NCBI GenBank assembly: GCA_003339415.1
Contig: PDHQ01000090.1
Location: forward strand, 1-64,000
From: Ophiocordyceps camponoti-saundersi (nom. inval.)
Taxonomy: Eukaryota > Ascomycota > Sordariomycetes > Hypocreales > Ophiocordycipitaceae
DNA: 64,000 nucleotides
Direction: 5' to 3'
Shown piece after piece: positions 2,645 through 47,189 of the stretch; the first letter of the stretch is position 1, and each line of letters begins with the position of its first letter. Position numbers and translations under genes: made by a program. A model generated the notes under the pieces. It was not told where the DNA came from. It saw only the letters and a program-made list of their open reading frames with translations, and did no database searches.

Positions 2645-4120
2645 TTACTAAAGAGACAATAATAGCGCTCGCGGCGGCTAAGGCCGGGGCCTAAGAAATA
2701 GGCGATACTCCTATAATTATAAATAGGGGGTTACGGGGACTAAGTTAATCCTCGTAATATACCTAGTCCGGCTAGGGGTAATATAATAATAATATTAAGA
2801 TAGATAAAGTAACGGACTAAGTATAGTGCCCTAGCAATTATAATATAAAAGATATATATAGTAAGCTTATTATAATAATATTAGCCGCGGCGTTTTCCGA
2901 AATATAAGATATTATAATAGCTCTTAAGGCTAAATTTCGTAAAAAATTTATAGCTACCTTAAACTAAACTAAGACCTAACTTTTACTTAAGATTATTAAG
3001 TTAATTAAGAAAATAGTTATTAAAGCTATATAGAAAGCCCTCTTATTAATAGCTAGTCCCGATATTAATTAAGCTTACCTAATATAAAGGTTTATAGCTA
3101 CTAATAAATATATAATAATTAAACTTATCTTAAGCTACTTTAATAAAAAAGTTATTATATCTATAAAAAATATTATAATTAATATAAATATTTTATAACT
3201 AATTTTATAAAAGATTATATAAGCTACGAATATAGCTTTAAAATATAAAGCTATATTAGTAATATAATAGCTCCCTAATAGGGATATTATAATTATATTT
3301 TATTTAGAGTATAAGAGGCGAGTAGCTTTAGTTAAGTAAATCTTTATTATTTTCGGAGAGGGAGTAGTTTATAATTAGAAAACTTACTTTATTATAGCGA
3401 AAAGAGTATATACGGAGGCCGCTTATAGCGACTAAGATATACTTATATAGTAAATTAAGAAGGTTAATAAGGTTAAAATTACCTAAGTTTAAGCTCTCTA
3501 GCTTTATAATAAGGGCGCTATACGTATATACCTAATACTAGGAGTTATTAATATAATAGATATTAATAAACTTATATAAAATAAACTTATAATAAGTATA
3601 GAAATCTTTTAAGTTAAGGTTTATAATAATATAGTATAGCCCCGATAATATTATTAATATTATTAATTTAAATATATAGCGAAATATTACCGTAAATAAC
3701 TACGCTATAGCCTCTACGCGGCCGTAGCATATCCGGAAAAGGAGGGCGTATACTTAGCCTTAGCTAAAAATAAAACTAAAAGCTATATTATTTATAAGGG
3801 ATATTACGCCTTATAGTCCCGGAACTATCTTATTTTAAAAGCGTATTAGGATTAAATATATAATAACTATATTTATTAATTATATAAGTTTTAAGATTAC
3901 TTATAGCTAACTTAATCTTAATTTAATAATAGCTTTATTAAAGTTTAATCTTAAAAGCGATCTTTCCCGCCCTTATTATAATTATAAGCTATAATTTAAT
4001 TTAATATAAATAAAGACCCTAGTCTAGTACTAAAAAGAGACTATAATAAGACTAATATTACTCTTAGTACCTAAGGAGGATAGGGAGCTAATAGAGGATA
4101 AGGAGCCCCCTTATCTACCT
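2645..4120 (+). pseudogene. LINE-C ORF1 (gag-like, zinc knuckle), RIP-dead
   Basis: ORF1 proteins of LINEs bind the element RNA and help form the retrotransposition particle. Translation allowing for RIP gives an Ala/Lys-rich N-terminal part followed by a helical region. A zinc knuckle at 3649-3690 has Tyr codons at the four positions of a CX2CX4HX4C motif, as expected when TGY and CAY become TAY. A second Cys/His-like cluster lies at about 3780-3835. Stops are all TAA or TAG. No ATG start survives, so the start is an estimate from where the frame becomes open. ORF2 follows after a short gap. Confidence 0.65.
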
Positions 4121-4129
4121 TAATATAAT

Positions 4130-6484
4130 TATAAACTTTTACCTTATCTACCTCTAATAAAGATTAAAACTTTTTTTTAAAATATATAAAAATATAATTA
4201 TCTTATATATATAACGCTTTATAGCTTAGTTAGCTATAATTTTATTTATATATAAGAATTATAACGTAACTAATTTAATCGTTTATTACTTCTAAGTATC
4301 TTATTATATAAACTTATAAATTCTAATAGCTAAGTAATTTTTTATATTTATAAATAATTAAACCTTTCCCTTTAGACCCCCCTTACCGCCCCCGATATAG
4401 TATCTATTCTCTTTTATACCTCGCCCTTATTATAAATTATATTTATTTATTTACCTTTATTAGTAATTAAGTTAGGTCCCCTCTTTTAAAAGGATATTAT
4501 CTGCCCTAACCTTAGCCTAATAGCTACCCTCTTATACGGTAATTTTAACCTTTATTACCCCTCTTAGGATTATTATAAATAATCCTCTCTTAGAGTATTT
4601 AACTTTCTTAAGCTAGCGATTAGCCTCTAACTTAGCCTTTTTACGCCCCTAAGTAAAATTACCTAAGAAATATATAATAAGCGAAATAAAACTATTAACT
4701 TAGCTTAAGCTATACCTAAATACTAAGTAATATACTTAGGGAATAACTTTAACCTTATTAGCTTTAATTATATCTTATAAATTATCCTTATTAATACTAA
4801 TCTTTACCTTAATATAACTTTAACTAAAATATAGCGCTCTTTCTACCTAGATATCTTTATAGCTAAAGTATAAAACTAACTTAAACTAAACTTATACCTT
4901 ATTATAATACTTAAAGAGCTTAAAAACGTAGTTACTTTACTTTATAATTAACTAAAAATAATAATAGAAATAATAATATTAGTATATATTTAAATTTACC
5001 TTATAGCGTAAAATTAGTAAAACTAGGTAATAGCTATTATAATAGCGGTTACGGAAAAAGCCTAATATTATTAATATATTAATTTTACTAACTTTTATTC
5101 GTAAGACTATTAAAAAGTAATAAAAGTATAAAAGTTAATAATTAGCGCGGTATATTATAGCGCCTAGTATAACTTTCTTAATAATATCTTTACGAAATTA
5201 TTAACCTTTTAAATTATAAAATATTAAGCCTAGCTACGGAGCTAAGCCGCGCCTAAGCTAATATATATCCTTTTCTTTTAGAAATATTTAAAGTTAATAT
5301 TAGCGATTATTTTCTCCGATAAGGTAACCTTATTTAGCTAATAATTTTTCCTAGCTTTTACTAATTTAGCCCCTTTACTTATTTTAAATAATCCTTTCCC
5401 TTTTTTTTATATTAAGTATATTATTATTATTATTAAAGATATTTACTTTACCCTCTTCTTAATCGCTTTTTAGAAATTAGCTAGCCTTAATAAGATTCCG
5501 GTTAAGTTTCTAAAAAAATATAAACTCCCCCTTATCTAAGTTTTCTAAAAAATTTTCTAAAGCTATATTAATAATAATTATTTCTTATTATAATTTAAAA
5601 TCTCTAATATTATAATTATTTAGAAAGTAAATAAACTACTAGCTACGTATTATACCCTTAATAAATATAAGCTAATTTTACTCCTTAATATAATAAGGAA
5701 AATTTTAAAAATAATTATAGCTAGGAAAATCGCGTTAGTAATAAAAAAGGCCCGGATCCTCCCTAATAGCTAGATAAGTAATAGATTATAGCGCTTTATT
5801 AATATAGCGGTCCTTATATTTACTAAAATAATTAAAATAATCTAAAACTAAAGTAGCACCGCCTTACTCCTTTTATTAAACCTTACTAGGGCTTTTAACT
5901 ATATCTCTTATAATAAGTTAATTATTATTATAAACTATTTAAGCTTCTCTAAATAGGTTATAGCGTTTATCTAATTATATTTTATAAACTATATTTTAAG
6001 ATTTAAGTTTAATTATAAACTTAGTAATACCTTTTTAATTTAGTAAAAGGTCCCTTAAGGGTTTTTAATATTACCGGTCCTTTTCCTCTTATATATATCC
6101 TCGCTATATTAACGCTTAGACTTAATATTAAGTCTTCTTATAATAAGGTTTATAAATAATACTAATATTCTTAATATTAGATATAATAAAGCTTAGGTAT
6201 TACTTTAACTTAAGCGTATATAGTAAATTTACGAATAATAAGCTTTAGAATATAAAATAACTTTTTAGCTAACTAAAAGTAAGTTAATATATTTTATAAA
6301 AGTAAAGATAGCGGATATAACTAAGCTATAGCTTAGAGCTATAATAGTATAATTAATATAAGAGGCGCGACTCCTAAAGGTTTAGTTATATTATAAGCTA
6401 TATTAAAAATCTTACTTTTTAAAACTTACTACTAAGCTTAAGCGCTAATACTTAGCCCTTACTAAGATTATAGCGTTAATATAA
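4130..6484 (+). pseudogene. LINE-C ORF2, 5' part: endonuclease and reverse transcriptase
   Basis: This is the first part of the LINE polymerase, which nicks the target and copies RNA at the nick. An endonuclease motif at about 4538-4560 reads GNFNLYYP, from GDFNLHHP after RIP. The reverse transcriptase block VP-stop-GF at 6050-6061 matches VPQGF, followed by a Leu/Ile-rich segment. The catalytic block near 6148-6170 reads FINNTNI, matching an F-x-DD box with both Asp codons turned to Asn. The frame is cut at 6484 by LINE-A copy 1 and continues at 13833. The N-terminal boundary near 4130 is inferred from a weak IQE-type motif at about 4246-4275. Confidence 0.75.
6469..6484 (+). repeat. Left target-site duplication of LINE-A copy 1
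   Basis: The 16-bp sequence TATAGCGTTAATATAA occurs here and again, unchanged, at 13817-13832. Between them lies the whole LINE-A unit. Joining the flanks with one copy of the repeat restores an open LINE-C ORF2 frame. Confidence 0.9.
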
Positions 6485-6589
6485 TTACTTTATAATAATA
6501 GCTAGCTACGGATTAACTAGCTATATAAGGAGAACTCGACACGCGCCTAGTATAAAGCGCGATCTAAAAGGAAAAGGTAAGATATTAGT

Positions 6590-8150
6590 AGTATCGGATT
6601 CGCCGTTTAATTCGGAGTAGGGCTATGCCTAGCCGAGTTCCGGCCGGGGGTAATCGCAACCGCGGCAGAAGAGAGAGAAATTTTCGTAAAAAAACTAAGG
6701 TTATAACGCGCTCCGAATATAAGTTAGATTCGTCTATATACCGGTCTAGAAATACTAACTTTAATAGAAAATATACCGGATATAATTAGGGACTATTATA
6801 AGTTTTAGTTAATAAGAATAAGAAAGAATTATATTATTAACTATTAGGTATTATATTAGCTAATACGTTTTATATAGCTTAAGCTATAATAGTAGCTTAT
6901 AAGAAATTTAAATTAAATTAAATCCGGATTTAGATTAATTATATTACGCGCGAGGAAATTAAAAATATTATTATTATTACCTTCCGTAAATCGTTATATT
7001 TAGAGATAATAAAATAGGGAGGATACCGAATATAAATATAAGTTATATCGGCTCCGATTTTATTATATAACTTAGAAAAGAAGCTTCCTTTACGTTATAA
7101 GAAGGAAATTATTATTCGCTTAGCGGATATAATAAATAATATTATAAATAAGATAATATACGATATTATATAAGCTATTAATACTACTATTTACTCTAAC
7201 TTATACCTAGCTATACGCTGCCTTAATAGTAGGGATATTAAACTTACTTTCGATAAAAATATAGCTATTTTTACCTAGGACCTAGGCTAGGTTACGCTTA
7301 TTTTTAGCGATAAAGCGATTATTACGGATAAGATTTATAATATTATTACTAAGGGATTTCCTCTAAACCTTACTATTAAGGAACGCGATAACCTCCTTAA
7401 TAAGATAATATAAGTTAATAAAATACTTATAGCTTATTTATAAGCACTTAAGCCTTAGCTTAGATTTACTAAGATAGCGGTTATTATTAGCCTTAAATTA
7501 CTAATTAATACTAATAAACTCTATAATAATAAGCTAGCTATTAACGCTTAAATTTTTCGTATAGAGCTATTCTTAAACGCGGTCCGCCCCTAGCGATATT
7601 ATAATTATTATTATTTCGGGTATATTGCTAAAATATATAAATACTCTAAGCTTTATAGTAAATATAAAGTAACCGATTATAAAAATAAGGATAATTACCG
7701 TGCTAGAATCGGAGGATACCCGTTTTATTATATCTCTTATAGCGGGGATTACCCCGTATAGTTTAGGCTTTACCCTATCGCTATTAAGTACTAGGATCGG
7801 GCAAGAGCTTACTATAAGAAATAACTAGTTAGATTTACTAAGCCTAGCTTATAATTTATCTTATAACCGACGAAATTAGTAATAACTAAGAACGTTATTA
7901 TATATAATATATCCCTAAGCTAGTTTATTACTAAAAGGAAGTATAGATAACCTCTAGGCTCCGGAGGGGGCCGCCCCGCTACTAAAACGTAAATAATTAA
8001 GGATACCCTTAAGGTAATAAAACGCTTTATCTAACGGGCCTAGAGTGCCTCCCTCCCCTAAAATATAAATAGTATCTTACTTATATAAACTATTAACGAA
8101 CTAGCTTTATCTTTAGTTTAACTTAACCTTACTATCTAAAAGAGCGTAAA
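6590..8150 (+). pseudogene. LINE-A copy 1 ORF1 (gag-like, zinc knuckle)
   Basis: The region encodes a basic, helical RNA-binding type protein when RIP stops are read through. At 7597-7638 Tyr codons fill the four ligand positions of a CX2CX4HX4C zinc knuckle, with the usual Phe-Gly before the His position and Ile-Ala-Lys after it. Further Tyr pairs just downstream suggest a second knuckle. The same frame and knuckle are seen in copy 2. The start is not fixed because the leader differs between copies and no ATG survives. It overlaps or nearly abuts ORF2. Confidence 0.7.
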
Positions 8151-8209
8151 AATACTAATTACCTTAGCTTTAGCCTAAACTTAGATAAGATTTATAATTA
8201 GGCTATAGA

Positions 8210-11200
8210 GAAATTATAGTAAAAAAACTAATATTACTATAACTATTTTCTTATATTTATAAAAGTTTTTTCTTAGAATATAAATAAGCGTACTAAGCTA
8301 GCTAGGCTAATATTTAGTAATAAATCGGATTATAATATTATTACTTTTTAGGAAACTATTAGCTACCTTAGCGCTAAGCTTTCTCCGCCTAAGACTTCGC
8401 TTTACCGCTTTATTTATAGCGGCGGCCGTACTTTAGTCTATATCTATAAAAGATATAATATATTTACTTAGTTCCTAGAAATAGGGGAGGACTAAATAAG
8501 TATTACTTTCCGTTTTAGACTTTAGTTTATTTCTATCTATTCTCCCCTTAATACCCCCTATAGCGGTAGCTTTTTAATTTTTTAAGACTTTCCCCTAAAC
8601 CCTAACCGCGTCCTAGTTAGCGATTTTAACTTATATTACCCGCTTTAGGACCGTTATAAGAGGCTCTCCGATAACTTAGATTAGCTAATTTATAAGATAA
8701 CTAAGCTATAATTTTAACTTCTTACTTTAAAGGGAGAATATACCCGAATCTTTTATAGATATAAGGATAATATACTAAACTTAGTTTAAGCTATAGTAGA
8801 CTTATATATACGTTATATTAATCCGGACCTTAACTTTATTAAATCTAATTATATTTTTTAGTCTCTTATAGCCGGTATCCTTATACTTATAATAGCGCGT
8901 ATACCGCGCTTATAATAAAGATAAGCGGACCCGGACTTAGTTTACTATAAGTCCCTAGCTAAGATTATCCTTTTACTTTCCCCTTTTACTAACTTAATAA
9001 AGATTAATAACGCCCTTAACTAACTTTATTAAAAGCTATAATTTATTATTAACTAGATAATATTATTTATCGCCTTTTCCTATTCTTATAAGGCGGCGTA
9101 GTTTACCCTAGCTATAGCCTTAGCTACTTAAGCAGCTAAGCGGGCCCGGCGTAAATATAAGTCCCTTTTTTCGGACTCCTCTTAGTAATAGCTTTAGGAG
9201 ATAACCTTTACCTAGAAAATAGCTATAAACTTAGTAAGATATACCTATTAGTAATTTTTCTTTTATATTATCGCTAGCTTACCCTCTAAGTTTTAGTATA
9301 TTAAGCGTTAAGCTTATATTTAGAATAATCTTCTCTAGGATCTAGTCTATCTCCTTACGCTAAGGATAACTAATAAATCTTAAGCTAATAGTTATATAGC
9401 TAAAGCTAATATCTTAGCTAATTAGTTTTTTCCTTAGCTTTATAATATACCCTTAACTAATATTAGACCGCCTAAACTTAAGTTCTTTATTAATATTAAG
9501 ATTACTTAAACTAATATTTTTATAATACTTAAGTTAATAACCTCCTAAAAAGTAGCTAAAGTAAATAATATTCCTATTAAATTTCTTAAAATATATTACC
9601 TTATTTTTATTACTTAGCTAGCTATAATTTTCTAAGTATATATATAATTTAGTTATTTCCCGCCTTAGCTATAATCCGCTATTATAGTTATCTTATATAA
9701 GTTTAAAAAAAAGCTAGAAGCTTACTAAGAGGTAAGTACTTATAAGCTTATATCCTTACTATATTACTTAAGTAAAATCTTAAAAACTATAATAAGATAA
9801 TAAATTACTAAGGCTATAAAATTATACTAACTTCTTCTTAAAGGCTAGATAAGTAATAAGCAGAACCGGTTTACGAAGCTAGCTATCTTTATAATTACTA
9901 AGCTTATTTAAGCTACTTAGGCTAAGAAAAAAGTAGCGTTTTTCCTATAACTTAATATTAAGGGAGCGTTTAATATTATATATTATAATAAACTTATCGC
10001 TAAATTTAAATATCTAGGATTCCTAAACTAGATTCTAGCTTTCTTTAATAGCTACTTATAAAACCGCACCTCCTAACTTCGCTTTAATAGTAAGATTTCG
10101 GAACTATATTAGATTAAGATTAGAGTTCCTTAAAGTTCGCCGCTCTCCGCTATCTTATTTATTTTATATATAACCTTACTTTATAACTAGCTAGTATATA
10201 AGGAAGGAATATAAGTAATTAATTTTACGGATAATATAAACCTCCTTAATATTAAGCTTAACTTTAAAATAACTATAAGATAGCTTTAAGCTATATAAGT
10301 AATATATAAATAATAAGCGTATAATTATAATATAGAATTTAAGCTAAAGAAAAGTAAGCTTATATATTTTTCCTAGAAATATATTTTAAAGATAGACCTA
10401 GTCTAATTAAAAGATTACTAAGTTTACCTTATTTCTAAGGTAAGACTTCTAAGCGTTTAGATTTATCGGCGGCTATAATAGAAACCTTATCTATAAATTA
10501 TACGTACTAAGCTTCTCTACTAAAACTTTACCTTTTCCTTTTAATCCGCCTTTACTTAAAGTTACCCCCTTACTTAGGCTTATAAACTCTATATAAAGGT
10601 TATTTAGTTACTTATTATATATATTATTATTATATTTTATACTATTACCTTTATAAGCGGAAACTTACTAAGCCTAGCTAAAGCTTTAGGACTAGAATAA
10701 TTATAATATTTTAAGATAATACTTAAAGCTTATAAGGCTATGCTTATTTATTACCTTAAGGCTAAGTTTTAAGTTTCCTTACTTAATCTTTATTTAAATA
10801 AAAGGAAAACTAATACTTTTCGCTACTTAGAAGATATAACGATATTAAATAAGATCTAGACCGCTTTTAGAGATATCTTAAGGTTCCTATTATACTTCCC
10901 CCTTTATTAACTAATAAGAAGATAAAAAGCTAGGTAGCCGCTAGAGGAATATATATATTAAGTCCGAATATAGATAAGATACGATATACTACCTCTTAAT
11001 AAGAAGTTTATAACTAACTTTCTCCGCTAGGATTAGAAAATATAGTAAGAGGACTTTAAAAATTAGCTATATATAAGATATTTTAAGCTTACCTTATTTC
11101 CTTTTAACTTCCCGCCTTACCTTAATAAGGCGAAATTACTTAAAAGATACGGAGACTTACCGAAATATATTAATATTATAATTATATAACTTTATATAAG

Positions 11201-11640
11201 TAAAATTAGTTTTAAAAAGTTCCTTTTTTATAAGCGCGTGCTAGAAATAATCTTCTCTTTATATTAATACGGTATTAAATTAGAGAATACTTACTATTTA
11301 CTTCTTCGATACCCTTAACTAGTTAAATAGCGCTATAAATTACTTTAGCCTATCTCCTCTAATACTAAATTATAACTAAAGCTTAACTGCTACTTATTAG
11401 TAACTATAATTATAAAATAAATATTTTAATATACTAATTTATATTAATTTTAGCTTACTAATACTTTTTACGCTAATATTCTTAAGTTTAACTAAAGCTA
11501 AATATAGCCTTATCTTATATAAATTACCGTAACTATAATATTATTAATTTACCTACCTTATTTATAATTTACTTTATATTTTAAGGGAATCTATATTTAC
11601 TAAGTTTAAGTTATTATCTCCTCCCTTATTTAATAACTCC
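8210..11640 (+). pseudogene. LINE-A copy 1 ORF2: endonuclease, reverse transcriptase
   Basis: An APE-type endonuclease is shown by SDFNLYYP at 8619-8642 (GDFNLHHP before RIP). Reverse transcriptase is shown by VP-stop-SSPLS at 10125-10148, matching VPQ-SPLS, followed by an Ile/Leu-rich stretch, and by FTDN at 10224-10235 in the place of FADD. About 1.4 kb follow the catalytic box, enough for a thumb and an RNase H domain, though I could not confirm RNase H motifs. The frame ends near 11640, just before the end of the opposite-strand frame. Confidence 0.8.
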
Positions 11641-11699
11641 TTAACTCCTCTAGCTATCTTATTAGTAGGAGTAACTACGAACTAACGCCGGCCTTATAA

Positions 11700-13395
11700 C
11701 GTAAGTTTACTTAATATAAAGCTATTAAGACTTAGGGCGAGGCGCGTCCTACTTAGAGTTACTATTAGTATAGTAACTTATAATAAGTTTAGTATAGTAA
11801 TTAGCTATAAAGCGGTCGCTTACTATTATAATAAGCTTAGAATAATAATTAGCTTAAGTAAAATTATTTATTATTAAGATAAGCTTAGAGTAATAACTAA
11901 ATCTAGCGTAGTAGCAGGCCGCGTGCTATTAAGGGTAATTATCGTTAGCGTTAGTTTATTATCTTTATTAAGAAATAACTTATTTAACCTTAAGATTTTT
12001 AGATATTTTAGTAATAGCTTATAACCGCGGAGCCCCCCGCGCTTTCTTAATACTTCGCTAAGGTATAGCTTAAGTTTATACTTTTTTAATAACTCTAAGT
12101 TAGCGAGAGGTAAATTATATTAAAAACTAACTAACTAAAACTCCTAGCTAATATTAGCTTACTAAGTAACTTAAGGTAAGGCGATTTTAAGTATCTAAGG
12201 GATATAAAACTTAGCTAAATCTATCCTTATTATAATAATATTATAGTTTATTATAGCTATATAAATATTAGTAGTTATTATAGCGGCCGCTATTTTAACT
12301 AAGGTCTCCTTTACTATAAATAACTTAGCTACCCCCTTACTAATTAAGCTTATCTTTACTATATTTAGCGCTAGCGTAGCCTCTAACCTTAAAACTTTAT
12401 TATCGCCGAAACTAACTTAGTATAAGCTCTCTCCCTTACTCTCCCTAAAATATACCCTAGCGAGATATAAACGCTCTAAGTTAATAATAAGAATAGGTAA
12501 TAAGTTATTATTATTATTATCTATATCTAATATAATTATAGGAGTCTTAGGCGCGGCGCGAGCTTTCTTCTTAATAGGACGCGTTTAAATTATAATAGGA
12601 GATATCTATCTTTTACCTTTACTTTTTAAAAGCGCCGTAAGCGCTACCTTAGTAAGCTTTATTATTATTAGCTTACGTATCCCGCTTACTTTATAAGTTA
12701 TATCTGCCCTTACCCTAAGTAGAGCCTAGGCTAGCCCTCCTAGCTTCTTAAGTACTACCGCTACCTTTTTACCTAAGTTTAGTATATTATAAGCTATATT
12801 TATAAAGCTTAAAGTTTATTAATTAATATAGGCGTTAACTTATTTTAAGGTAGCGTAAATTAACTTAAATATAGAGATAGATATCTCCCCCCCCTCTCCC
12901 TCCGCCTCTTTTACCTCTTTTATAACTTTAATATAGATACCCCTTAAGGCGTTCCTTATCTTAACTATATTCTTATAAGTATAGCTTTAGCTTAAATTCT
13001 AAATTAAAGTAAGATCTTTCTTAGCTATAGCTTATACCCCTCCGAATTTTTATTACTTATTATAATACTTAGCTTATATAATATATAGCTTCGTAGCGTT
13101 ATCTTTAAGTTAGGGATATCTAAATATATAAGTAAAATTTATCTAAGTATAAGTAATATATACGCGCGTATTTACGGCTATTAAATATTAGCTTAATCTT
13201 ATTAATATATAGCTTAGATAGGGCGTAATTTACTTAGCTAATCTTAATAGCTAGTATATAAATAATAAATATAATCTTAAGTAAGTTTAGAAACGTAATT
13301 ATTATAAAATATAGCTTATTTATTATTAATCTTTATATTATAATTATAAGCTATTATTATTATAATAAGGGAAGTTAAGGTTAATATTATTTATA
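11700..13395 (-). pseudogene. LINE-A copy 1 opposite-strand ORF, unrecognised
   Basis: One minus-strand frame runs for about 560 codons with only TAA and TAG stops, at roughly 4-5 per cent of codons over the part I translated carefully (about 11950-12700). The product would be Lys- and Leu-rich and largely helical. It has a run of Asn residues and a Lys-Lys-Lys-Ala-Arg patch near 12560-12600 that resembles a nuclear localisation signal. I do not recognise the family. It lies tail-to-tail with ORF2 and inside the target duplications, and the same frame exists in copy 2. Near its 3' end (11780-11920) the DNA has degenerate tandem units of about 45 bp. It could be a real element protein or a captured host sequence. 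Confidence 0.55.
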
Positions 13396-13816
13396 AAAAA
13401 AGGGGGCCTTACGCTATATAAGCTATAAGATTTTATACCCTATAATAGCTTACTTACTAATTATAAGGCGCTATAGTATATATTAATATATACCTTTTTA
13501 TTTTATAGCGGTATATACCTCCTTCTTTTACTAAGGTTTTAGCTTATATTTACCCTCCCGCGGCTAAGGTTCGCGGCCGCTTCCGTCTTAGTAACCCTTA
13601 GACCCCGGCTCGTTTTACCTTAAACCCGCTACTATAACTTAGCAGACTAGCACGAGGCCCGCTATAGCACCCTCTCCTTACTTACTATTCTTACCTTACT
13701 AGCTACCGACTACTTAGTAAGGGGTTTTCCCCCGGGCCCGGCCCGGTTTTTCCCCTCTTCCTACCCTTTATATGCCTAGATACCTTATAGGTTCCTAGAG
13801 TAATATAATATATATA
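13396..13816. other. LINE-A copy 1 3' region, upstream of the opposite-strand ORF
   Basis: No frame is seen here. The block holds the palindrome GGTATATACC at 13510-13519 and a related TATATTAATATATACC just before it. A GC- and pyrimidine-rich stretch follows (13555-13760), including GGGGTTTTCCCCCGGGCCCGG. The element ends in TAATATAATATA without a plain poly(A). For the minus-strand frame this is the place where a promoter would lie; that role is inference. Confidence 0.5.
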
Positions 13817-13832
13817 TATAGCGTTAATATAA
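13817..13832 (+). repeat. Right target-site duplication of LINE-A copy 1
   Basis: This is the second copy of TATAGCGTTAATATAA, identical to 6469-6484. LINE-C sequence resumes directly after it. Confidence 0.9.
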
Positions 13833-14840
13833 AGCTATATTTTATTAAAAGTAAGGGAAGTTTATATTAAAGCTATTAAATTAGCTATTATATTTAGTAT
13901 AATTTAGTTTACTTTACTTATATAGCTAGGGGGGATATTATATAGCTTTATTATAAAAGCTTTAGCTATAAAATAATTTAAATACCCCTAAGTTATTATT
14001 AAAGCTTATAAAGCTACCTTTATTTATTATATTAAAGCTAAGGCTTTTATTTTACTTTTTAACCTTTATCTTACTTACTATATAGTTTATACTTATTACC
14101 GCTTATAATATATTAGAATAGTAAACCTTATCCGTATTATAATAAAGAAAGTAGCTAAGTAAGTATATTATAAATATAAAAAACGCTCTTATCAAAAGAG
14201 ATACTAAGTATTATAAAACTTAGAGAAATTCTATATAATATAAACTAGCCTTAAGCTAGCGGTAAGATATAAGTAATATAACTTTAATATTTAACTTTAT
14301 AATAAGTAGCTCCTTTACTAATACTTTAGGAAAGGAAAGTTAAAGAAATATAAATAGTTATATAGCTACCTTATAAATAAGCTATTATAACTTAAAGCTA
14401 GCTCTATTTTTTATATATATAAGGGACTCCTTAAGTTTATTAGTATAATATTTATATAATTTAAAATTAGATATATTAGACTTAATTTATTTCTCTAAGC
14501 TTATAAGGTGCCCGGGGTAATATTAAGGCGATACCCTTATAATAATAGTAATAAAATAATCCTTTATATTTTTATTAACTATACTCTTATTTATAAAGAT
14601 AGGCCCCTACTTAACGCTAACTAGCGTTTAATATAAGACTAATAAAACCTTATTAAAGCGCTTAATAACTTATAATCTATAGCGTAACTTATATATTAGT
14701 TCCTTTTACTAAAAAGGCTTTGTTAATTTAACCTTATATTATTACTTTATAAGGAGAGGGAGAACGGGGATACTAACCCTAGCGCGAATATATAATAGTT
14801 ACTATATAATAATATACTTATATTTTTTACTTTACTAATT
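13833..14840 (+). pseudogene. LINE-C ORF2, 3' part (thumb and C-terminal region)
   Basis: The frame interrupted at 6484 continues here as a Lys/Leu-rich segment of the type that follows the reverse transcriptase palm in LINE polymerases. The segment at 13846-13875 is close in sequence to 54910-54945 of LINE-B ORF2, which supports the assignment. About 300 codons remain, enough for a thumb plus a small C-terminal domain. Around 14500-14620 several Tyr codons in a Pro-rich context may have been a Cys/His finger. I did not find clear RNase H residues. Confidence 0.65.
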
Positions 14841-14879
14841 ACTTACTTAGCTTTAAGTTTTAATTACCTTAACTATATA

Positions 14880-20239: not shown

Positions 20240-21272
20240 GGTTAATAAGGCTAAGTTAGGGCTATTCTTAATATAGGCGTTAGCCGGGTTATTCTTATTA
20301 TTAATCTATTATATTTTTAAAATTTCTTTATACTTATATAACTTATAAATAGCTATAATATTAATTATTAGCTATTTTTCTATTATTAAGCCGAGCCTTA
20401 TTAAGTAATTATATAATAAATATAAGTTTATATAGAGAATAAGGGGGATCGGAGGCGTGCTTAGGGATTATATAATAGCTTAAATAGTTAAGTAAAGGGC
20501 TAGGCTAATATTAACGCTATTTACTATACTATAAAGTTCGCTTATTAGGATATTTTAAATAACCTTTTTATATTTCGTAAAAGTTTAGTAAAAGATATTA
20601 CCTTATACGATAAATAAGTTAGAGGACCGGTTTTCCTTATTAAGGATAATTAAGGTGCTAAGCTATAAGGTAAAGTCCTTATTATTCGCAAATAACCTAT
20701 CCGTAAAAATAAATAGTTTCGTATAAGATAGGTTAAGCGGAATAAACTATAAATTATAAGCAGTATTATTAATTTACTATTAGATATATTTATTAAAGGC
20801 TAAAATATCTTATAAGGAAGGATCGGTTACTTAAGCGGTTACTATAAGGTTATATAACGCCTCTAGTTAATAAGTAAAAGTAATATATACTCCTTAGGCT
20901 TACTAGCTAATAAAGTCTTATAAGGTAATATTAGCAGTTAGGTTAATAACGTAGAGGCCCTTTACTTATCTTTTCTATATAAGAACGATATCGTACGATT
21001 TGCGCGTAATATAACTATTATTAAAGTTAATAGATAAGCTATTAGTAAGGAATATTTTAAGCTTCGTACGAAGCTTTGCTTATTTTAACTTATTTTCCTT
21101 AAGTTTAGAGAATATATTAGATATAAAAGAGAATATATTATCTATTTATAAGCTCGTTATTCTAAATAAGTTAGGGCCGGCTATTATAAATAAAAGATAT
21201 AAATTATATAATAAGGGCGTTATATAAAGGTTTATATAATAATAATTATAATATATCTTAAACTAATATAAT
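20240..21272 (+). pseudogene. Y orfB, 5' part of a very long unrecognised ORF
   Basis: A plus-strand frame, checked in register from about 20400 to the X2 insertion at 21272, reads as a Lys/Arg/Leu-rich helical protein with TAA/TAG stops only. Removing X2 and one copy of its 5-bp duplication joins this frame in register to 42439, where it continues for over 4 kb. I looked for reverse transcriptase, integrase, helicase and recombinase motifs and found none that I can name. The upstream start is not fixed. Confidence 0.5.
21268..21272 (+). repeat. Left target-site duplication of X2
   Basis: ATAAT here and ATAAT at 42434-42438 flank the LTRs of X2. Five bases is a usual length for LTR-element insertion. 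Confidence 0.8.
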
Positions 21273-21759
21273 TATCGGTTAGGCATCCTTCCTAAGCTAA
21301 ATAGGAGGCTAGTATTACGTTTCGCTCTTATCGTAATATATAGGTTAATAGCTATAAGGAACTTTATATATATACGTATTAACCTAATTAATAAGGTTCG
21401 GGTATTTCTACTAAATTATATAGCTAAAAAAATATTATATCTCTTATCTAATATACTCCGGCGGAAAGAGTTACGAATAATTAATTTAATAACTTTATTT
21501 ATAATTTCTTACTTAAATAAAAATACGGAAAAGATTAATATATTATATATACGTCCGGCTATACTCCCTCCTACCCTTAATTCTTATTATATTAATAACG
21601 TATATTATATTAATATTATATTAATCTCGGATCGGTATTATCTTAAGTTCGACTCCTTTTTATACGTACCTCTAACCTCCTACTTTATTTATATAAAGAT
21701 AGTAATCTTTATAATACGTATTATATTCCTAAGTAGCTAGTAATATATATATTCTAATA
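21273..21759 (-). repeat. 3' LTR of X2
   Basis: It aligns with 41947-42433 and, reversed, with the X1 LTRs. On the minus strand it begins TATTAGAAT (TGTTAGAAT before RIP) and ends CCGATA (CCGACA), the TG...CA ends of an LTR. Confidence 0.9.
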
Positions 21760-23234: not shown

Positions 23235-23319
23235 TAGAATATTTCTCCTTAAGGGAGTAAAAAGAACTCGACATGCGCCTAGTATAAGGCGCGATCTAAA
23301 AGGAAAAGGTAAAACGTTA

Positions 23320-24880
23320 GCGACGTTAGATTCGCTATTTAATTTAAAGTAAGGCTATGCCTAGCTAAGTTCTAGCTAGGGGTAGTCGTAACCGTAGCGG
23401 AGGAGGAAGAAATTTTCGTAGAAAAACTAAGGTTATAACGCGCTTCGAACGCGGGTTAAATTCGTCTATATACTAATTTAGAAATACTAACTTTAATAGA
23501 AAATATATTAGATATAACTAAGGATTATTATAAGTCTTAGTTAATAGGAATAAAAAAAAACTATATTATTAACTATTAAGTATTATACTAGCTAATATAT
23601 TTTATACGGCTTAGGCTATAATAATAGCTTATAAGGAACTTAAATCGGACTAAATCCGGACTTAGATTAATTATATTACGCGCGAGGAAATTAAAAATAT
23701 TATTATTATTACCTTTCGTAAATTATTATATTCGGAGATAACGAAATAAGGAGAATACCGAATATAAGTATAAGTTATATTAGCTTTAATTTTACTATAT
23801 AATTTAGAAAAGAAGCTTCCTCTATATTATAGGAAGGAAATTATTATTTACTTAGCGGATATAATAGATAATATTATAAATAAGATAGTACGCGATACTA
23901 TATAAGCTATTAATATTACTATTCGCTTTAACTTATACTTAGCTATACGCTACCTTAATAGTAAGGATATTAGACTTACCTTCGATAAAAATATAGCTAC
24001 CTTTACTTAGGACCTAGGCTAGGTTACGCTTATTTTTAGCGATAAGGCGACTATCGCAGATAGGATTTATAATATTATTACTAAAAGATTTCTTTTAAAC
24101 CTCGCTATTAAGGAACGCGATAACCTCCTTAATAAGATAGTATAAGTTAATAAAATACCCGTAGCTTATCTACGAGTACTTAAGCCTTAGCTTAGATTTA
24201 CTAAAATAGCGGTTATTATTAGCTTTAAATTATTAATTAATATTAATAAACTCTATAATAATAGGCTAGCTATTAATACTTAGATTTTTCGTATAAAGCT
24301 ATTCTCGGACGCGGTCCGCCCCTAATAATATTATAATTATTATTATTTCGGGTATATCGCTAAAATATATAAATACCCTAAGCTTTATAATAAGTATAAA
24401 GTAACTAATTATAAGAACGAGGATAACTACTATATTAGAATCGGAGGATACTTATTTTATTATATTTTTTATAATAAGAAATACCTTATATAGTCTAGGC
24501 TTTACCTTATCGCTATTAAGCACTAAGATTAGGTAAGAGCTTATTATAAGAGATAACTAGTTAGATTTACTAAGCTTAGCTTATAATCTATCTTATAACT
24601 AACGAAATTAATAATAACCGAGGATATTATTATATATAATATATCCTTAAGCTAGTTTATTACTAGAAGGAAGTATAGATAACCCCTAAGCTCCGGAGGG
24701 GGCTACCCCGCTACTAAGATATAAATAATTAAAGATACCCCTAAAGTAATAAGACGCTTTATCTAATAAGCCCGGAGTGCCTCCCTCCCCTAAGATATAG
24801 ATAGTATCTTACTTATATAAACTATTAATAAACTAGCTTTATCTTTAGTTTAACTTAACTTTACTATCTAAGAGAGCGTA
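23320..24880 (+). pseudogene. LINE-A copy 2 ORF1 (gag-like, zinc knuckle)
   Basis: This is the counterpart of 6590-8150 and aligns throughout. The zinc knuckle is at about 24324-24365, with Tyr codons in place of Cys and His before and after Phe-Gly. Stops differ in position from copy 1, showing that each copy was mutated separately. RNA binding is inferred from the knuckle and from the place before ORF2. Confidence 0.7.
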
Positions 24881-24939
24881 GAAGTACTAATTATTTTAGC
24901 CCTAGCCTAGACTTAGATAAGATTTATAACTAAGCTATA

Positions 24940-27900
24940 AAAAAATTATAGCGAAGAAACTAATATTATTATAACCGTTTTCTTATATCTATAAAAATCC
25001 TTTTTTAGAATATAAATAAGTATACTAAGCTAGCTAAGCTAGTATTTAGTAATAAATTAGATTATAATATTATTACTTTTTAGGAAACTATTAGCTATTT
25101 TAGCGCTAAGCCTCCTCCGCTTAGGACTTCGCCTTACTACCTTATTTATAGCGGCGGCTATATTTTAGTTTATATCTATAAAAGATACGATATATTTACT
25201 TAGTTCCCGGAAATAGGGGAGGACTAAATAAGTATTACTTTCTATTCCGGATTTTAGTTTATTTCTATCTACTCTCCCCTTAATACCCCTCGTAGCGGTA
25301 GCCTCTTAATTTTTTAAGACCTTCTCCCGAACCCTAACCGCGTCTTAGTTAGTAATTTTAACTTATATTACCCGCTTTAAGACTATTATAAAAGCTCTCC
25401 GATAACTTAAACTAGCTAATTTATAAAATAACTAAGCTATAATTTTAACTCCTTACCCCGAAAGGAGAATATACTTAAATCTTTTATAGATATAGGGATA
25501 GTATACTAAACTTAGTTTAAGCTATAGTAGACTTATATATATATTATACTAATCTAAACCTTAATTTTATTAGATCTAACTATATCCCTTAGTCTCTTAT
25601 AGCTAATATCCCTATACTTATAGTAGCGCGTATATTACGCTTATAATAAAGATAAGCAAACCTAAACTTAGTTTACCGTAAATCCCTAGCTAAAATTACC
25701 CTTTTATTTTCCCTTTTTACTAACTTAATAGAGATCGATAACGCCCTTAACTAATTTTACTAAGAGCTATAATTTATTATTAACCGGATAATACCGTTTA
25801 TTACCCTTTCCTATTCTCGTAAAGCGGCGTAGTTTACCCTAGCCGTAGCCTTAGCTACTTAAGTAGCTAAGCGAGCCTAGCGTAAATATAAGTCCCTCTT
25901 TTCGGATTTCTCTTAGTAATAGCTTTAAGAGATAGCTTTTACTTAAAAAATAGCCGTAAACTTAGCAAAATATACTTATTAGTAATCTTTCCTTTATATT
26001 ATTATTAGCTTACTTTTTAAGTTTTAGTATATTAAGCGTTAAGCTTATATCTAAAATAGTTTTTTTTTAGGATTTAGTTTATCTCCTTACGCTAAGGATA
26101 ACTAATAAATCTTAAGCTAATAGCTATATAGTTAAAGCTAATATCTTAGCTAATCGGTTTTTTCCTTAGCTTCGTAGCGTGCCCTTAATTAATACTAGAC
26201 CGCCTAAACTTAAGTTCTCCGTTAATATTAAGATTACTTAGACCGATATCTTTATAATACTTAAGTTAATAACCTCCTAAAAGGTAGCTAAAGTAAATAA
26301 TATTCTTACTAGATTTCTTAAGATATATTACCCTATTTTTACTATTTAGCTAGCTATAATTTTCTAAGCGTATATATAATTTAGTTACTTCCCGCCCTAG
26401 CTATAGTCCGCTATTATAATTATCTTACGTAAGTCCGGAAAAAAGCTAGAAGCTTATTAAAAAGTAGGTGCTTATAAGCTTATATTCTTACTATATTACT
26501 TAAGTAAAATTTTTAAGATTATAATAAGATAATAAATTACCGAGGCTACGGAGTTATATTAACTTCTCCTTAAAAGCTAGATAAGTAATAAGCAGAACTA
26601 ATTTACGAAGCTAGCTATCCTTATAATTACTAAGCTTATTTAAGCTACTTAAGCTAGGAAAAAAGTAGCGTTTTTCCTATAATTTAATATTAAGGAAATA
26701 TTTAATATTATATATTATAATAAACTTATTACTAAACTTAGGTATCTAGGATTCCTAGACTAAATCTTAGCACTCCTTAATAGCTACTTATAAGACCGCA
26801 CCTCCTAATTTCGCTTTAATAATAAGATTTCGGAACTATATTAGATTAAGATTAAAGTTCCTTAAAGTTCGCCGCTCTCCGCTATCTTATTTATTTTATA
26901 TATAGCCCCGCTTTATAACTAGCTAATATATAAGAAAAGAATATAAGTAATTAGTTTCGCGGATAATATAAACTTTTTTAGTATTAAGCTTAATTTTAAA
27001 ATAATTATAAAATAGCTTTAAGCTATATAAATAATATACGAATAATAAGCGCGTAATTATAGTATAGAATTTAAGCTAAAAAAGAGTAAGCTTATATATT
27101 TTTCTTAAAAATATATTTTAAAAATAAACTTAGTTTAACTAGGGGATTACTAAGTTTACCCTATTTCTAAGGTAAAACTCCTAAGCGTTTAGATTTATTA
27201 GTAGCTATAATAAAAACTTTATTTATAAATTATATATACTAAGCTCCTTTACTAAAACCTTACTTTTTCCCTCTTATCCGCTTTTACCTAAAGTTACCCC
27301 CTTACCTAAGCCCGCGAACTTTATATAAAAGTTATCTAATTACTTATCGCGTATATTATTATTATATTTTATATTATTACCCTTATAAGCGGAAACTTAC
27401 TAAGCTTAGCTAAAGCCTTAAAATTAGAATAGTTACGATATTTTAAGATAGTACTTAGAGCTTATAAAGCTATACCTATTTATTACTCTTAAGCTAAGTT
27501 TTAAATTCCTTTACTCGATTTTTATTTAAATAAAAGGAAGACTAATATTTTTCGCCGCTTAGAGGATACGATAATATTAGATAAAATCTAAACCGCTTTT
27601 AAAAATATCTTAAAATTCCTATTACGCTTTCCCCCTTATTAACTAATAAAATAATAAAAAGCTAAGTAATTATTAGAGGAATATATATATTAAGTTCGAA
27701 TATAAATAAAACGCGATATATTACCTTTTAATAAAAAGTTTATAATTAATTTTCTCCGCTAAGATTAGAAAATATAATAGGAGGATTTCGAAAACTAGCT
27801 ATATATAAAATATTTTAAGCTTACCTTATTTCCTTTTAACTTCCCGCCTTACCTTAATAAGGCGAAATTACTTAAGAGATATAAAAACTTACCGAAATAT

Positions 27901-28375
27901 ATTAATATTATAATTATATAACTTTATATAAGTAAAATTAATCTTAAAAAGTTCCTCTTTTATAAGCGCGTGCTAGAAATAGTTTTCCCTCTATATTAAT
28001 ATAGTACTAAACTAGAGAATACTTACTATTTACTTTTTCGATACTCTTAACTAGTTAAATAGCGCTACGAATTACCTTAGCTTATCTTCTCTAATATTAA
28101 ATTATAACTAAAGCTTAACCGCTACTTATTAGTAACTATAATTATAAAGTAAATACTTTAATATACTAACTTATATTAGTTCCGGCTTACTAATACTTTT
28201 TACGCTAATACTTTTAGGTTTAACTAAGGCTAGATATAGCTTTATTTTACGTAAATTATATAACTATAATATTATTAATTTACTTACCTAATCTACGATT
28301 TACTTTATATTTTAAGGGAATTTATATTTATTAAGTTTAAGTTATTATCTCCTCCCTTATTTAATAACTCCTTAA
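24940..28375 (+). pseudogene. LINE-A copy 2 ORF2: endonuclease, reverse transcriptase
   Basis: The endonuclease block at 25351-25374 reads SNFNLYYP, with the catalytic Asp turned to Asn. The reverse transcriptase block is at 26857-26880 (VP-stop-SSPLS). The catalytic box at 26956-26967 reads FADN, closer to FADD than in copy 1. The frame matches copy 1 to about 28375. It lies in the same orientation as ORF1 and tail-to-tail with the opposite-strand frame. Confidence 0.8.
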
Positions 28376-28429
28376 CTTTTTTAGCTACCTTATTAGTAAA
28401 AGTAATTACGGACTAACGCTAGCCCCGTA

Positions 28430-29942
28430 ACGTAAGTCTACTTAGTATAAAGCTACTAAGACTTAAAGCGAGGCGCGTTTTACTTAAAGTTACTATTAGC
28501 GCGGTAGCTTATAATAAGTTTAGCGTAGTAGTTAGCTACGAAACGGTCGCTTATTACTATAATAAGCTTAGAGTAATAATTAGCTTAGGTAAAGTTACTT
28601 ATTACTAAGATAAGCTTAAAGTAATAATAAGATCCGGCGTAGTAGTAGGCCGCGTGCTACTAAAGGTAATTATCGTCGGCGTTAATTTATTATCTTTATT
28701 AAGGAATAACTTATTTAACCTTAAAATCTCTAAATATTTCTATAATAGCTTATAATTACGGAGCCCCCCGCGCCTCCTTAATACTCCGCTAAGGTATAGC
28801 TTAAGTTTATACTTCTTTAGTAATTTTAAGTTAATAAGAGGTAAGTTATATTAGAGACTAACTAATTAGAATTTCTAGCTAACGCTAGCTTACTAAGTAA
28901 CTTAGAGTAGGGCGATTTTAAGTATTTAAAGGATATAAGACTTAGCTAAATCTATCCTTACTATAATAGTGCTATAGTTTATTATAGCCGCGTAAATATT
29001 AATAGCTATTATAGCGGCCGCCGCCTTAACTAAGGTCTCCTTTACTATAAGTAACTTAGCTACCCCCTTACTAGTTAGGCCTATTTTTATTATAACCGGC
29101 GCTAGCGTAGCCTCTAACTTTAGAACTTTATTATCGCCGAAACTAACTTAGTATAAGCTCCCTTTTTCGCTTTCCCTAAAGTATACCTTAGTAAGATATA
29201 AACGCTTTAAGTTAATAGTAAAAATAAGTAATAGGTTATCGTTATTATTATCTATATCTAATATAATCGTAAAAGTCTTAGGCATAGCGTAAGCTTTCTT
29301 CTTAATAGGATATATTTAGATTATAATAGGAGATATTTATCTCTTACCCTTACTTTTTAAAGGCGCTATAAGCGCCGCCTTAGTAAGCTTCGTTATCGCT
29401 AGCTTATATATCCCGCTTACCTTATAAGTTATATTTACTCTTATTTTAAGCAAAGCTTAAGCTAGCTTTCTTAGCTTCTTAAGTATTATCGTTACTTTCT
29501 TACCTAAGTTTAATATATTATAAGCTATATTTATAAAGCTTAAAGTTTATTAATTAATACGGGCGTTAACTTACTCTAAGGTAGCGTAAATTAACTTAAG
29601 TATAGAGATAAATATCTCCCCCCCTTTTTTTCCGCCTTTTTTACCTCTTTTATAACCTTAGTATAGATACCCCTTAAGGCGTTTTTTACCTTAACTATAT
29701 ACTTATAAGTATAGCTTTAGCTTAAATTTTAAATTAAGGCGAGATTTTCCTTAGCTATAGCTTATACCCCTCCGAACTTTTATTACTTATTATAATACTT
29801 AGCTTATATAGTATATAGCTTCGTAATATTATCCTTAAGCTAAAAATATATAAGTATATAAGTAAAATTTATTTAAGTATAAGTAATATATATACGCGCG
29901 TTTATAGCTACTAAATATTAGCTTAATTTTATTAATATATAG
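28430..29942 (-). pseudogene. LINE-A copy 2 opposite-strand ORF, C-terminal part
   Basis: It aligns with 11700-13213 of copy 1 and keeps the same minus-strand frame: Lys/Leu-rich, with the basic Lys-Lys-Lys-Ala patch near 29300 and the Asn run. G inserted at 29942 and separates this part from the N-terminal codons now at 40136-40320. The function is unknown. Conservation of the frame in a second, separately inserted copy argues that it belongs to the element. Confidence 0.55.
29939..29942 (+). repeat. Left target-site duplication of G
   Basis: ATAG here and at 40132-40135 flank the two LTRs. LINE-A copy 1 has the empty site, a single ATAG in the same context, at 13210-13213. Confidence 0.8.
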
Positions 29943-30139
29943 TAAAATTCCTCGATCGGTCTTAAATTATAAGATTAGATTAGATTATATAGGGTTATGC
30001 GTTAGGGCATTAGTAGTCGTGATCCCTTTTATATTAGTCTAATAGTAAGTCTAATAATAATAATAATTTCTCTCCGTTCTTCCCTTTTTCCTTCTATTCC
30101 TTATCTCCTTATGCCTTATCCTCTAACGCCTATCTAATA
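29943..30139 (-). repeat. 3' LTR of G
   Basis: It is a close match to 39935-40131. On the minus strand it begins TATTAG (TGTTAG before RIP) and ends in AATTTTA (AATTTCA). A purine-rich tract lies in the middle. The dinucleotide CA survives more often here than in the surrounding LINE. Confidence 0.92.
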
Positions 30140-30142
30140 AAG

Positions 30143-32370: not shown

Positions 32371-32374
32371 TACT

Positions 32375-32935
32375 TATATAGGGACGATTATAGGAAATAG
32401 GAGACAGATAATATATAAGGGTATAATATATATAAAGATAGTAGTATATAATAAGAAAATAAGTATACGATAAGAAAAATAAGTATATAATAAGGAGAAG
32501 AAAATATAAGAAAAATAAGTGCACGATAAAAAAATAAGTGCACGATAAGGAGAAGAAAATATGCGATAATAGATCGTAGTATATAATAAAAAGAAACGAG
32601 GAAAAGGAGCGTACGATAAAAAAACGATAGCGTTAATACTTAGTAAGATAAAAAGAGAGAAAAGGGATACGAAATCGTATATACCGATAAGTTAGAAGAG
32701 GTGCATATAGGTAAGAAGAAAAGGTCGTATATAGACTAATATCCGATAAGTTAGAAGAAATATATATAGGTAAGAAGAAAAGATAAGTTAAGAGAATAGT
32801 TAAAAGAAAATAGGGTATACGAAGATATAATTATAATCGAGTATACGAAACCTGCGAAGGTATGCGAGGTTAAAGGTATACGAGGTATAGTATAAAAAAA
32901 TAGAAAATAAAAGAGTAAAATAAATATAAACGACT
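32375..32935 (+). other. Purine-rich spacer of G with short repeats
   Basis: The plus strand is almost only A and G for over 500 bp, with irregular repeats of ATAAGTATACGATAAGAAAA and AAGTGCACGATAA (32450-32560). A second set based on GATAAGTTAGAAGA lies at 32680-32790. No frame is supported. It separates the pol region from the extra frame; on the sense strand it is a C/T tract upstream of that frame, which may have held its promoter (inference). Confidence 0.6.
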
Positions 32936-33029
32936 ATTAGCAATCCTTAGCCCCTTAGCTAGCTAACAGCTATTAATAATCTACTATAGTAACTTAATAT
33001 CTACCGTAGTAAGTTATTATTCTTAGTCT

Positions 33030-39880: not shown

Positions 39881-39916
39881 TATATTAATTCTATAGCTCG
39901 TATAGTAACGCGCTAA

Positions 39917-39934
39917 ATCCTAGTCTTATTACTA
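39917..39934 (-). promoter_or_regulatory. Primer-binding site of G
   Basis: Directly after the 5' LTR on the minus strand the sequence reads TAGTAATAAGACTAGGATTT, which becomes TGGTAATAAGACTAGG when RIP is reversed at the second base. TGG next to the LTR is the complement of a tRNA CCA end. Elements X1 and X2 carry almost the same sequence. Confidence 0.6.
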
Positions 39935-40131
39935 TAAAATTCCTCGATCGGTCTTAAATTATAAGATTAGATTAGATCGTATAGGGTTATATGTTAAGGT
40001 ATTAGTAGTCGTGATCCCTTTTATATTAGTCTAATAGTAAGTCTAATAATAATAATAATTTCTCTCCGTTCTTCCCTTTTTCCTTCTATTCCTTATCTCC
40101 TTATACCTTGTCCTCTAACGCCTGTCTAATA
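39935..40131 (-). repeat. 5' LTR of G
   Basis: This 197-bp copy matches 29943-30139. It is followed on the plus side by the second ATAG and by LINE-A sequence. Confidence 0.92.
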
Positions 40132-40135
40132 ATAG
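40132..40135 (+). repeat. Right target-site duplication of G
   Basis: This is the second ATAG, matching 29939-29942. LINE-A copy 2 resumes after it with the sequence found at 13214 in copy 1. Confidence 0.8.
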
Positions 40136-40737
40136 CTTAAATAAGGCGCAATTTACTTAGCTAATTTTAATAGCTAGCGTATAAATAGTAAACGCGGTCC
40201 TAAATAAGTTTAGAAATATAACTATTATAAAGCGTAGCTTATTTATTACTAATTTTTATATTATAGTTATAAGCTATTATTATTATAATAAGGGAAGTTA
40301 AGGTTAATATTATTTATAAAAAAAAGGGGCCTTACGTTATATAAGCTATAAGATTTTATACCTTACGGTAGCTTACTTACTAATTATAAGGCGCTATAGT
40401 ATATACCGGTATATACCTTTTTACTTTATAGCGGTATATACCTCTTTCTTTTACTAGGGTTCTAGCTTATATTTACCCTTCTACGGCTAAAGTTTACGGC
40501 CGCTTCCGTCTTAGCGACCCCTAAACCCCGGCTTATTTTACCCTAGACCCGCTACTATAACCTAGCGGACTAGTATAAGGCTCGCTATAATACCCTCTCC
40601 TTACTTACTATTCTTACCTTACTAGCTACTAACTACTTAGTAAGGGGTTTTCCCCTAGGCCCGGCCTAGTTTTTCCCCTCTTTCTACCCTTTATATGCCT
40701 AGCTACCTTATAGGTCCCTAGAGTAATATAATATATA
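40136..40737 (+). mobile_element. LINE-A copy 2, 3' remainder
   Basis: It aligns with 13214-13816 of copy 1. The first 190 bp hold the N-terminal codons of the opposite-strand frame (minus strand). The rest has no frame and contains two GGTATATACC palindromes (40408-40417 and 40433-40442), where copy 1 keeps one intact. It ends in TAATATAATATA. Confidence 0.85.
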
Positions 40738-41942: not shown

Positions 41943-41946
41943 TTAG

Positions 41947-47150: not shown

Positions 47151-47189
47151 AAGGCCTTATTAACTTTTTATAACTTTAGATAATTAGGG

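Follow-up and report, generated by a model that had tools for sequence, protein, structure and literature searches.

Opposite-strand reading frames downstream of ORF2 in LINEs of Ophiocordyceps camponoti-saundersi

Three LINE families in a nest of retroelements

The window, that is, the whole 64-kb stretch of DNA analysed here from a 45.7-Mb, 733-contig genome, is a nest of retroelements. A copy of LINE-A (A1) is inserted in LINE-C, a second LINE-A copy (A2) is split by an LTR element carrying 198-bp repeats, and a LINE-B copy (B1) lies inside an LTR-type element which in turn splits another LINE-B copy (B2). LINE-A, LINE-B and LINE-C each contain, inside the mobile unit, an opposite-strand frame of 0.8-1.7 kb, here called ORF3, that lies tail-to-tail with ORF2. 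The elements show the hallmarks of LINEs, with target duplications of variable length (16, 14 and 13 bp), 5' truncation and no LTR. A reverse transcriptase domain (PF00078) was detected above the cut-off in ORF2 of LINE-A and LINE-B, and was assigned in LINE-C through the homology of its ORF2 to that of LINE-B. For an APE-type endonuclease, LINE-B gave weak matches to PF14529 (E=5.7e-4) and PF03372 (E=0.0078), both below the curated cut-offs, and for LINE-A no Pfam match to such an endonuclease was obtained. We take the three families to be Tad1/I-like.

LINE-A1 is a full-length copy on the plus strand (6485-13816), flanked by an exact 16-bp target-site duplication (6469-6484 and 13817-13832) and homologous over 7.3 kb to genome copies. 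Its ORF2 (8250-11507, plus strand) contains the reverse transcriptase (E=5.6e-9 when the read-through frame 8250-11420 was searched) and shares 32% identity over 1109 residues with ORF2 of LINE-B. On the minus strand, ORF3-A runs from 13394 down to 11661; it is defined by a read-through protein search with at least 76 matched stretches (best 75 of 150 candidates scored) and contains a 6-bp in-frame difference between subfamilies. The 3' segment of LINE-A (13395-13816) is, read on the minus strand, the region upstream of ORF3-A. At 13766-13775 of its minus strand, 41-50 bp from the LINE-A 3' end, it holds a TATA-like GCATATAAAG, which is kept, with transitions, in all copies covering its site (13 of 15 LINE-A copies compared) and which, by its sequence and position, is a candidate promoter of ORF3-A. 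A search for a 3' stem-loop in LINE-A gave no significant result (MFE z -1.21). Over the last ~200 bp of the element (13600-13820 and the corresponding part of other copies) the GC content is 0.43 and the observed/expected ratio of CA+TG is 0.11, compared with 0.012-0.037 in the rest of LINE-A; RIP seems to spare the end of the repeat.

LINE-A2 (23235-29942, plus strand) is 86.8% identical to A1 and continues at 40133-40737, past the 10.2-kb LTR element (29943-40132), whose 198-bp terminal repeats are 95% identical. Its 14-bp target duplication lies at 23221 and 40738. ORF3-A of this copy occupies 28392-29918 on the minus strand (63% identity over query 71-578), and its remainder, also on the minus strand, follows past the LTR element, at about 40133-40320, where 40127-40739 matches 13203-13816.

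LINE-B1 occupies 50877-58134 on the plus strand and is bordered by a 13-bp target duplication whose two copies (50864-50876 and 58135-58147) differ by a single A/G mismatch. The earlier note had recognized this duplication correctly; it belongs to B1 and not, as proposed there, to the split copy formed by 47161-50678 and 61545 onward. ORF2 of LINE-B (52557-55897, plus strand) contains the reverse transcriptase with E=3.2e-10, and ORF3-B abuts its end on the minus strand (55906-57111). The extent of ORF3-B is given by matches (at least 78 matched stretches, best 72 of 404 candidates scored) together with the indels, the permutation test and the lightly RIPed copy described below. The minus frame as originally drawn was longer; from 55906 to 57111 it holds, while below ~55906 it is the antisense of ORF2 itself. 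The first part of LINE-B2 (47161-50678, plus strand) is interrupted by the LTR-type element and resumes at 61545: in LINE-B coordinates the match stops at 54431 near 50678 and resumes at 54427 at 61545. ORF3-B of this copy lies on the minus strand at 63022-64000 and continues past the window to ~64242. The LTR-type element (50679-61544), which splits LINE-B2 and is itself hit by LINE-B1, has terminal repeats of ~0.5 kb, one composed of 50679-50876 plus 58135-58462 and the other at 61033-61544.

The first part of LINE-C (3200-6484, plus strand, start approximate) was identified by the homology of 4145-6400 to ORF2 of LINE-B, with weak matches in the ORF1 region from ~3208. Beyond LINE-A1, the ORF2 tail follows at 13821-14876 on the plus strand, its first bases being the right copy of the A1 target duplication; a search with this tail gave at least 116 matched stretches (best 115 of 454 candidates scored). 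The core of ORF3-C runs on the minus strand from 15689 to 14877, with at least 114 matched stretches (best 113 of 298 candidates scored), and the frame stays open up to 15959. A second LINE family, termed C-type here, is 45-53% identical to ORF3-C over 271 codons (query 91-361) and 55-63% identical to the LINE-C ORF2 tail. It matches from 15689 only, and the minus frame at 15959-15689 is probably not part of ORF3-C.

Two further features of the window are its start (1-224), which consists of short tandem repeats with self-matches offset by 36-81 bp, and its sole stop-to-stop frame of at least 150 codons (21267-21740, plus strand, 157 aa). The latter lies within a repeat also present at 41938-42433 and, inverted, at 60811-61547.

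Association of ORF3 with ORF2

The proposal that the minus frame moves with the LINE, made because target duplications of 16, 14 and 13 bp enclose it, is supported in all three families. For LINE-A we compared 20 copies fetched from the genome, which were picked via ORF3, so that an ORF2 without ORF3 could not appear among them. On the scale of the window, 13 of the 20 begin within 6518-6545 and 18 terminate within 13814-13823, while six have no match upstream of 9317-11524 and are thus 5'-truncated. The common 3' end, together with the six truncated copies, indicates that the 3' region belongs to LINE-A, and the polarity of truncation is as expected with a 3' end beyond the minus frame.

For LINE-B and LINE-C we counted from the ORF2 side, which avoids the bias of picking copies by ORF3. 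Among the matches listed for ORF2-B tails (best 112 of 302 candidates scored), 64 of 112 have an opposite-strand ORF3 just past their 3' end, and so do 39 of the 40 best-scoring tails. The corresponding count for ORF2-C, again among the matches listed, is 83 of 116. The gap between ORF2-C and ORF3-C measures -2 to 55 bp in 75 of these 83 listed pairs, and no same-strand ORF3 was found within 1 kb of an ORF2-C tail among the matches listed. An antisense ORF downstream of the reverse transcriptase gene is present in these families, its coding nature being well supported for B only. Among the listed matches, 48 of 112 ORF2-B and 33 of 116 ORF2-C tails had no ORF3 match; these could be LINEs without ORF3, LINEs with another ORF3, or search misses. 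Further B and C copies within the fetched loci were fragments only. A separate repeat at this position, the alternative that the earlier note had raised, was not found: ORF3 adjoins ORF2 in B and C, with the unpaired tails just described among the matches listed.

Evidence for a possible minus-strand protein

The frames had been noticed for their openness, with stops of RIP type only. In the window the observed/expected ratio of CA/TG is 0.04, and TGA occurs 7 times on the plus and 6 times on the minus strand. Because CpA RIP is saturated, TGA is almost missing and every TAA and TAG is ambiguous. Against a window mean of 0.109, stops reach a density of 0.074 in the minus frame of A, 0.072 in that of B and 0.100 in that of C (0.074 in the C core). 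When stretches of equal length are taken from any frame, the share that is equally open amounts to 8% for A, 9% for B, 44% for C and 15% for the C core. In the same control the ORF2s rank at 21%, and ORF1 of LINE-A stands out at 0.5%. Under saturated CpA RIP, stop density is uninformative and was ruled out as coding evidence, and the observation on RIP-type stops likewise carries no information. As first noticed, the minus frames are no more than chance, and coding needs other evidence. Two other measures were also discarded: codon-usage log-odds trained on ORF2, which track strand skew and not frame, and codon-position bias among LINE-A copies, whose differences are almost all transitions. 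As the LINE-A copies differ almost only by transitions, they were near-identical before RIP.

Openness within the range of chance is what would be expected if the 3' part were a long non-coding 3' UTR, with the minus frame arising by chance from the composition of DNA under saturated RIP. We evaluated this for ORF3-B with an alignment of four natural copies: B1, B2, C210 (lightly RIPed, GC 0.54 over L053) and C712. Between B1 and C712 the indel events inside ORF3 are +6, +6, +18, +1/-4, -6, -3, -9 and +18. With +1 and -4, which are 16 bp apart, taken as one event, 8 of 8 are net in-frame; with the gaps counted singly, 7 of 9 are. Between B1 and B2 all four indels (+12, -6, -3, +15) are in frame, at sites partly common with those of the B1/C712 pair. 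As judged by eye, the indels lie mostly outside triplet arrays. Frame-breaking frameshifts of non-RIP origin, named in the earlier note as evidence that would speak against a gene, are not seen among the subfamily indels of ORF3-B, with the exception of a 7-bp out-of-frame tandem insertion in C210 within the last ~8 codons. Upstream of ORF3, C210 also has a 20-bp deletion.

A permutation test, in which transversions were shuffled among like bases and amino-acid preservation was scored, gave z values of 5.3, 5.8, 4.4 and 3.7 for the ORF3-B frame in four pairs of B copies. The mirror frame on the opposite strand, which has the same third positions, reached 1.5, 0.4, 0.5 and 1.9. Values for the two other minus-strand frames were 2.0-5.3, above that of ORF3's own frame in two of the four pairs, and 1.4-3.6 for the other plus-strand frames of the region; since these frames are raised too, the substitutions also cluster. 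ORF2 as a positive control (29 transversions) reached only z 1.8, with an equal value for its mirror, so that the test is weak when changes are few. In C210, codon position 1 of ORF3 is 75% purine, and GC is lowest at position 2.

The strength of constraint on ORF3-B is a different matter. Its transversions show no significant bias by codon position in six pairs (p 0.12-0.86), as opposed to a third-position excess in ORF2 (5/7/17 by codon position, B1/B2). Transversion density is 5.3% in ORF3 versus 2.1% in ORF2 for B1/B2 (2.6 times) and 11.5% versus 1.7% for B1/C712 (6.7 times). ORF3-B is therefore fast-evolving, either weakly constrained or under diversifying selection, and its constraint is weak at best. 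These two properties, like the stop density, agree with a non-coding 3' UTR, which leaves unaccounted for the eight net in-frame indel events, the preservation of amino acids in one frame of B and the fact that ORF3-C can be aligned with the second LINE family over its 271 codons. We regard the non-coding reading as unlikely.

The coding frame could also be the mirror, on the LINE's own strand, as a sense third ORF or a Ser/Pro/Thr-rich C-terminal extension of ORF2. The numbers of stops would allow it, with 40/577 in the mirror versus 43/578 in ORF3 for A, 19/401 versus 29/402 for B, 37/360 versus 36/361 for C and 13/410 versus 18/411 in copy C210, where the mirror frame is moreover continuous with ORF2. 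In A1 and B1, however, it is out of phase with ORF2, and in B it is little conserved (z 0.4-1.9). In the second C-type family, the ORF3 frame outscores the mirror at 40 of 41 loci, by a mean of +22.9 bits; these loci were picked from both frame searches, and loci present in one search only were left out. Percent identity to C differs little between the two frames. A coding mirror frame thus appears quite improbable.

For LINE-A the choice of strand is less clear. The comparison of the A and A' subfamilies (14 diverged A loci minus L046, L050 and L052) yielded one fixed indel in ORF3-A, of +6 bp, and fixed purine/pyrimidine differences of 7/7/13 by codon position, a pattern that the mirror frame would give as well. 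In the permutation test on 11 copies (the 14 diverged loci minus L044, L050 and L052) the mean z was 2.33 for ORF3, 2.11 for another minus-strand frame and 1.92 for the mirror, and the ORF3-A frame was top-scoring in 5 of the 11. The choice of strand for ORF3-A is thus weakly supported by the sequence comparison. Altogether, the case for protein coding on the minus strand is good in B, moderate in C and weak in A.

The selected product might instead be an antisense RNA, a dsRNA or lncRNA directed against ORF2 and the 3' UTR. As ORF2 and ORF3 abut, converging transcripts would overlap, and there are precedents: one report describes antisense lncRNAs on TEs of Blumeria and phased small RNAs that map, among others, to 13 Tad1 LINE consensus elements (PMC10648671), and antisense transcripts of TART, a Drosophila non-LTR element, are described as non-coding in another (PMC7264820). 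With TART the present LINEs have the non-LTR type in common; antisense transcription is described for TART and would be expected here. An RNA product leaves the in-frame indels and the frame-specific conservation unexplained, and we consider it very unlikely.

Properties of ORF3 and its relation to known antisense genes

The products of the minus frames had been described as basic. In part this is an effect of RIP, which turns Glu into Lys and makes the copies in the window look more basic than their ancestors: the net charge of ORF3-B is -11 in the lightly RIPed C210 and +35 in B1. A basic tail remains, as in C210 the last ~48 residues alone are strongly basic (+14). This LINE-B copy (L053:1-1351 and L055:1-2001; C210:178400-181700) is saturated for CpA RIP, yet its GC content is 0.40-0.62 per 300 bp, compared with the 0.2-0.3 typical of the other copies. 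Apparently it has gone through far fewer rounds of RIP, and it may help to date RIP.

The three LINEs had been said to share the ORF. They share its layout; in sequence no homology among ORF3-A, -B and -C was detected beyond ORF2, either by blastp in all frames or by profile comparison with hhalign (36, 4 and 1 sequences). A common origin may still hold, given the faster pace of ORF3-B compared with ORF2 and the blurring of residues by RIP. A Pfam search with the three ORF3s returned nothing but a chance-level match to MoCoBD_1 (E 0.12), and neither TRP28 (PF04195) nor an Smc-type domain was matched. Nothing usable came from searches of a plasmid collection or of the PDB, in which INO80 subunit B, matched by the basic tail, ranked first (E 0.045). 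Structure models of ORF3 reached pLDDT 34-35 and were discarded.

The usual picture of a LINE is that of an element with one or two genes, all read from the same strand. That no LINE with the present layout has been described, as the earlier note had stated, agrees with our survey of the literature, mainly of titles and abstract openings and mostly of papers outside subscription: it brought up no LINE described as having an antisense gene in its 3' part. In plant LTR retrotransposons, however, the same layout is well described. Their aORF-3R, as in Grande (gene23), RIRE2, Retand (ORF4/TRP28) and PvRetro13, are antisense to the reverse transcriptase gene, lie between pol and the 3' LTR and occur in many or most copies, and all representative Retand elements studied carry antisense aORFs, according to two papers (PMC7264820, PMC11963269). 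In the same papers, the function of the proteins is given as unknown, some being nuclear, predicted to bind DNA or equipped with an SMC domain, and many but not all aORF-3R have TRP28 or an Smc-type domain (PMC7264820, PMC11963269). ORF3 is likewise antisense to the reverse transcriptase gene and situated between it and the 3' end of the element. In contrast to aORF-3R, its host is a LINE, with 5' truncation and variable target duplications, and not an LTR retrotransposon, and it has neither TRP28 nor another Pfam domain. Its presence in copies (64/112 in B, 39/40 for the best, and 83/116 in C) refers to the matches listed, and as a candidate promoter ORF3-A has the TATA-like motif in the right place. 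By analogy, ORF3 may work like aORF-3R, yet it is not a member of this group.

Other known systems differ as well. Retroviral antisense genes include HTLV HBZ and HIV asp, whose hosts are proviruses with LTRs; asp overlaps env, whereas ORF3 abuts ORF2. Such genes are described as having their promoter where the retroelement ends on its 3' side (PMC10186651). ORF0 of primate LINE-1 is also an antisense ORF in a LINE, but with 71 aa and an antisense promoter it is located in the 5' UTR (PMC4908685), while ORF3 of A, B and C has about 270-580 codons and lies 3' of ORF2, facing it. The superfamily-I LINEs I-1_CH and I-2_CH of Cochliobolus heterostrophus are two-ORF elements of 5.7-6.6 kb whose 3' end is reported to carry short tandem repeats (PMC4112212). 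They have ORF1 followed by ORF2, as do the present LINEs; LINE-A and LINE-B are longer (~7.3 kb) and have a third, antisense frame in addition.

The layout and the association with ORF2 are found in A, B and C, and preservation of the frame and conservation at the amino-acid level in B. We consider it probable, with some confidence, that several LINE families carry a fast-evolving antisense accessory gene, ORF3, as the LINE counterpart of the plant aORFs. ORF3 would be copied along with the LINE, even in 5'-truncated copies, because target-primed reverse transcription sets out from the 3' end, which ORF3 adjoins. An antisense promoter within the last 0.3-1 kb, the LINE 3' UTR read backwards, would drive its transcription. 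Placed there, with the promoter in the terminal segment, such an antisense gene would be the best-copied part of the element. The predicted product is a fast-evolving accessory protein, which for ORF3-B would be acidic and Ala/Gly/Glu-rich and end in a strongly basic tail at the C-terminus. In the simplest case, the ORF3-B protein may regulate the cycle of its own element by binding nucleic acids or acting on chromatin, in the manner of the antisense aORFs found in Grande and Retand of plants or of retroviral antisense genes. More speculatively, and with considerable doubt, the antisense ORF3 proteins of four families or more (LINE-A, LINE-B, LINE-C and the second C-type family) could form a third class of LINE genes, with a counter-defence or regulatory role and expressed from the 3' UTR read backwards; the pace of ORF3 relative to ORF2 would fit an arms race with host silencing by RNAi, RIP or heterochromatin.

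For annotation, the results are a warning: in genomes with saturated RIP, 1-2 kb of this kind would pass for a 3' UTR, and the logic of stop codons cannot reveal ORF3. If the favoured interpretation is true, an arrangement familiar from plant LTR retrotransposons and retroviruses, with an antisense gene placed at the 3' end, has arisen in non-LTR elements too, and ORF3 would be a testable candidate for the persistence of LINEs under saturated RIP.
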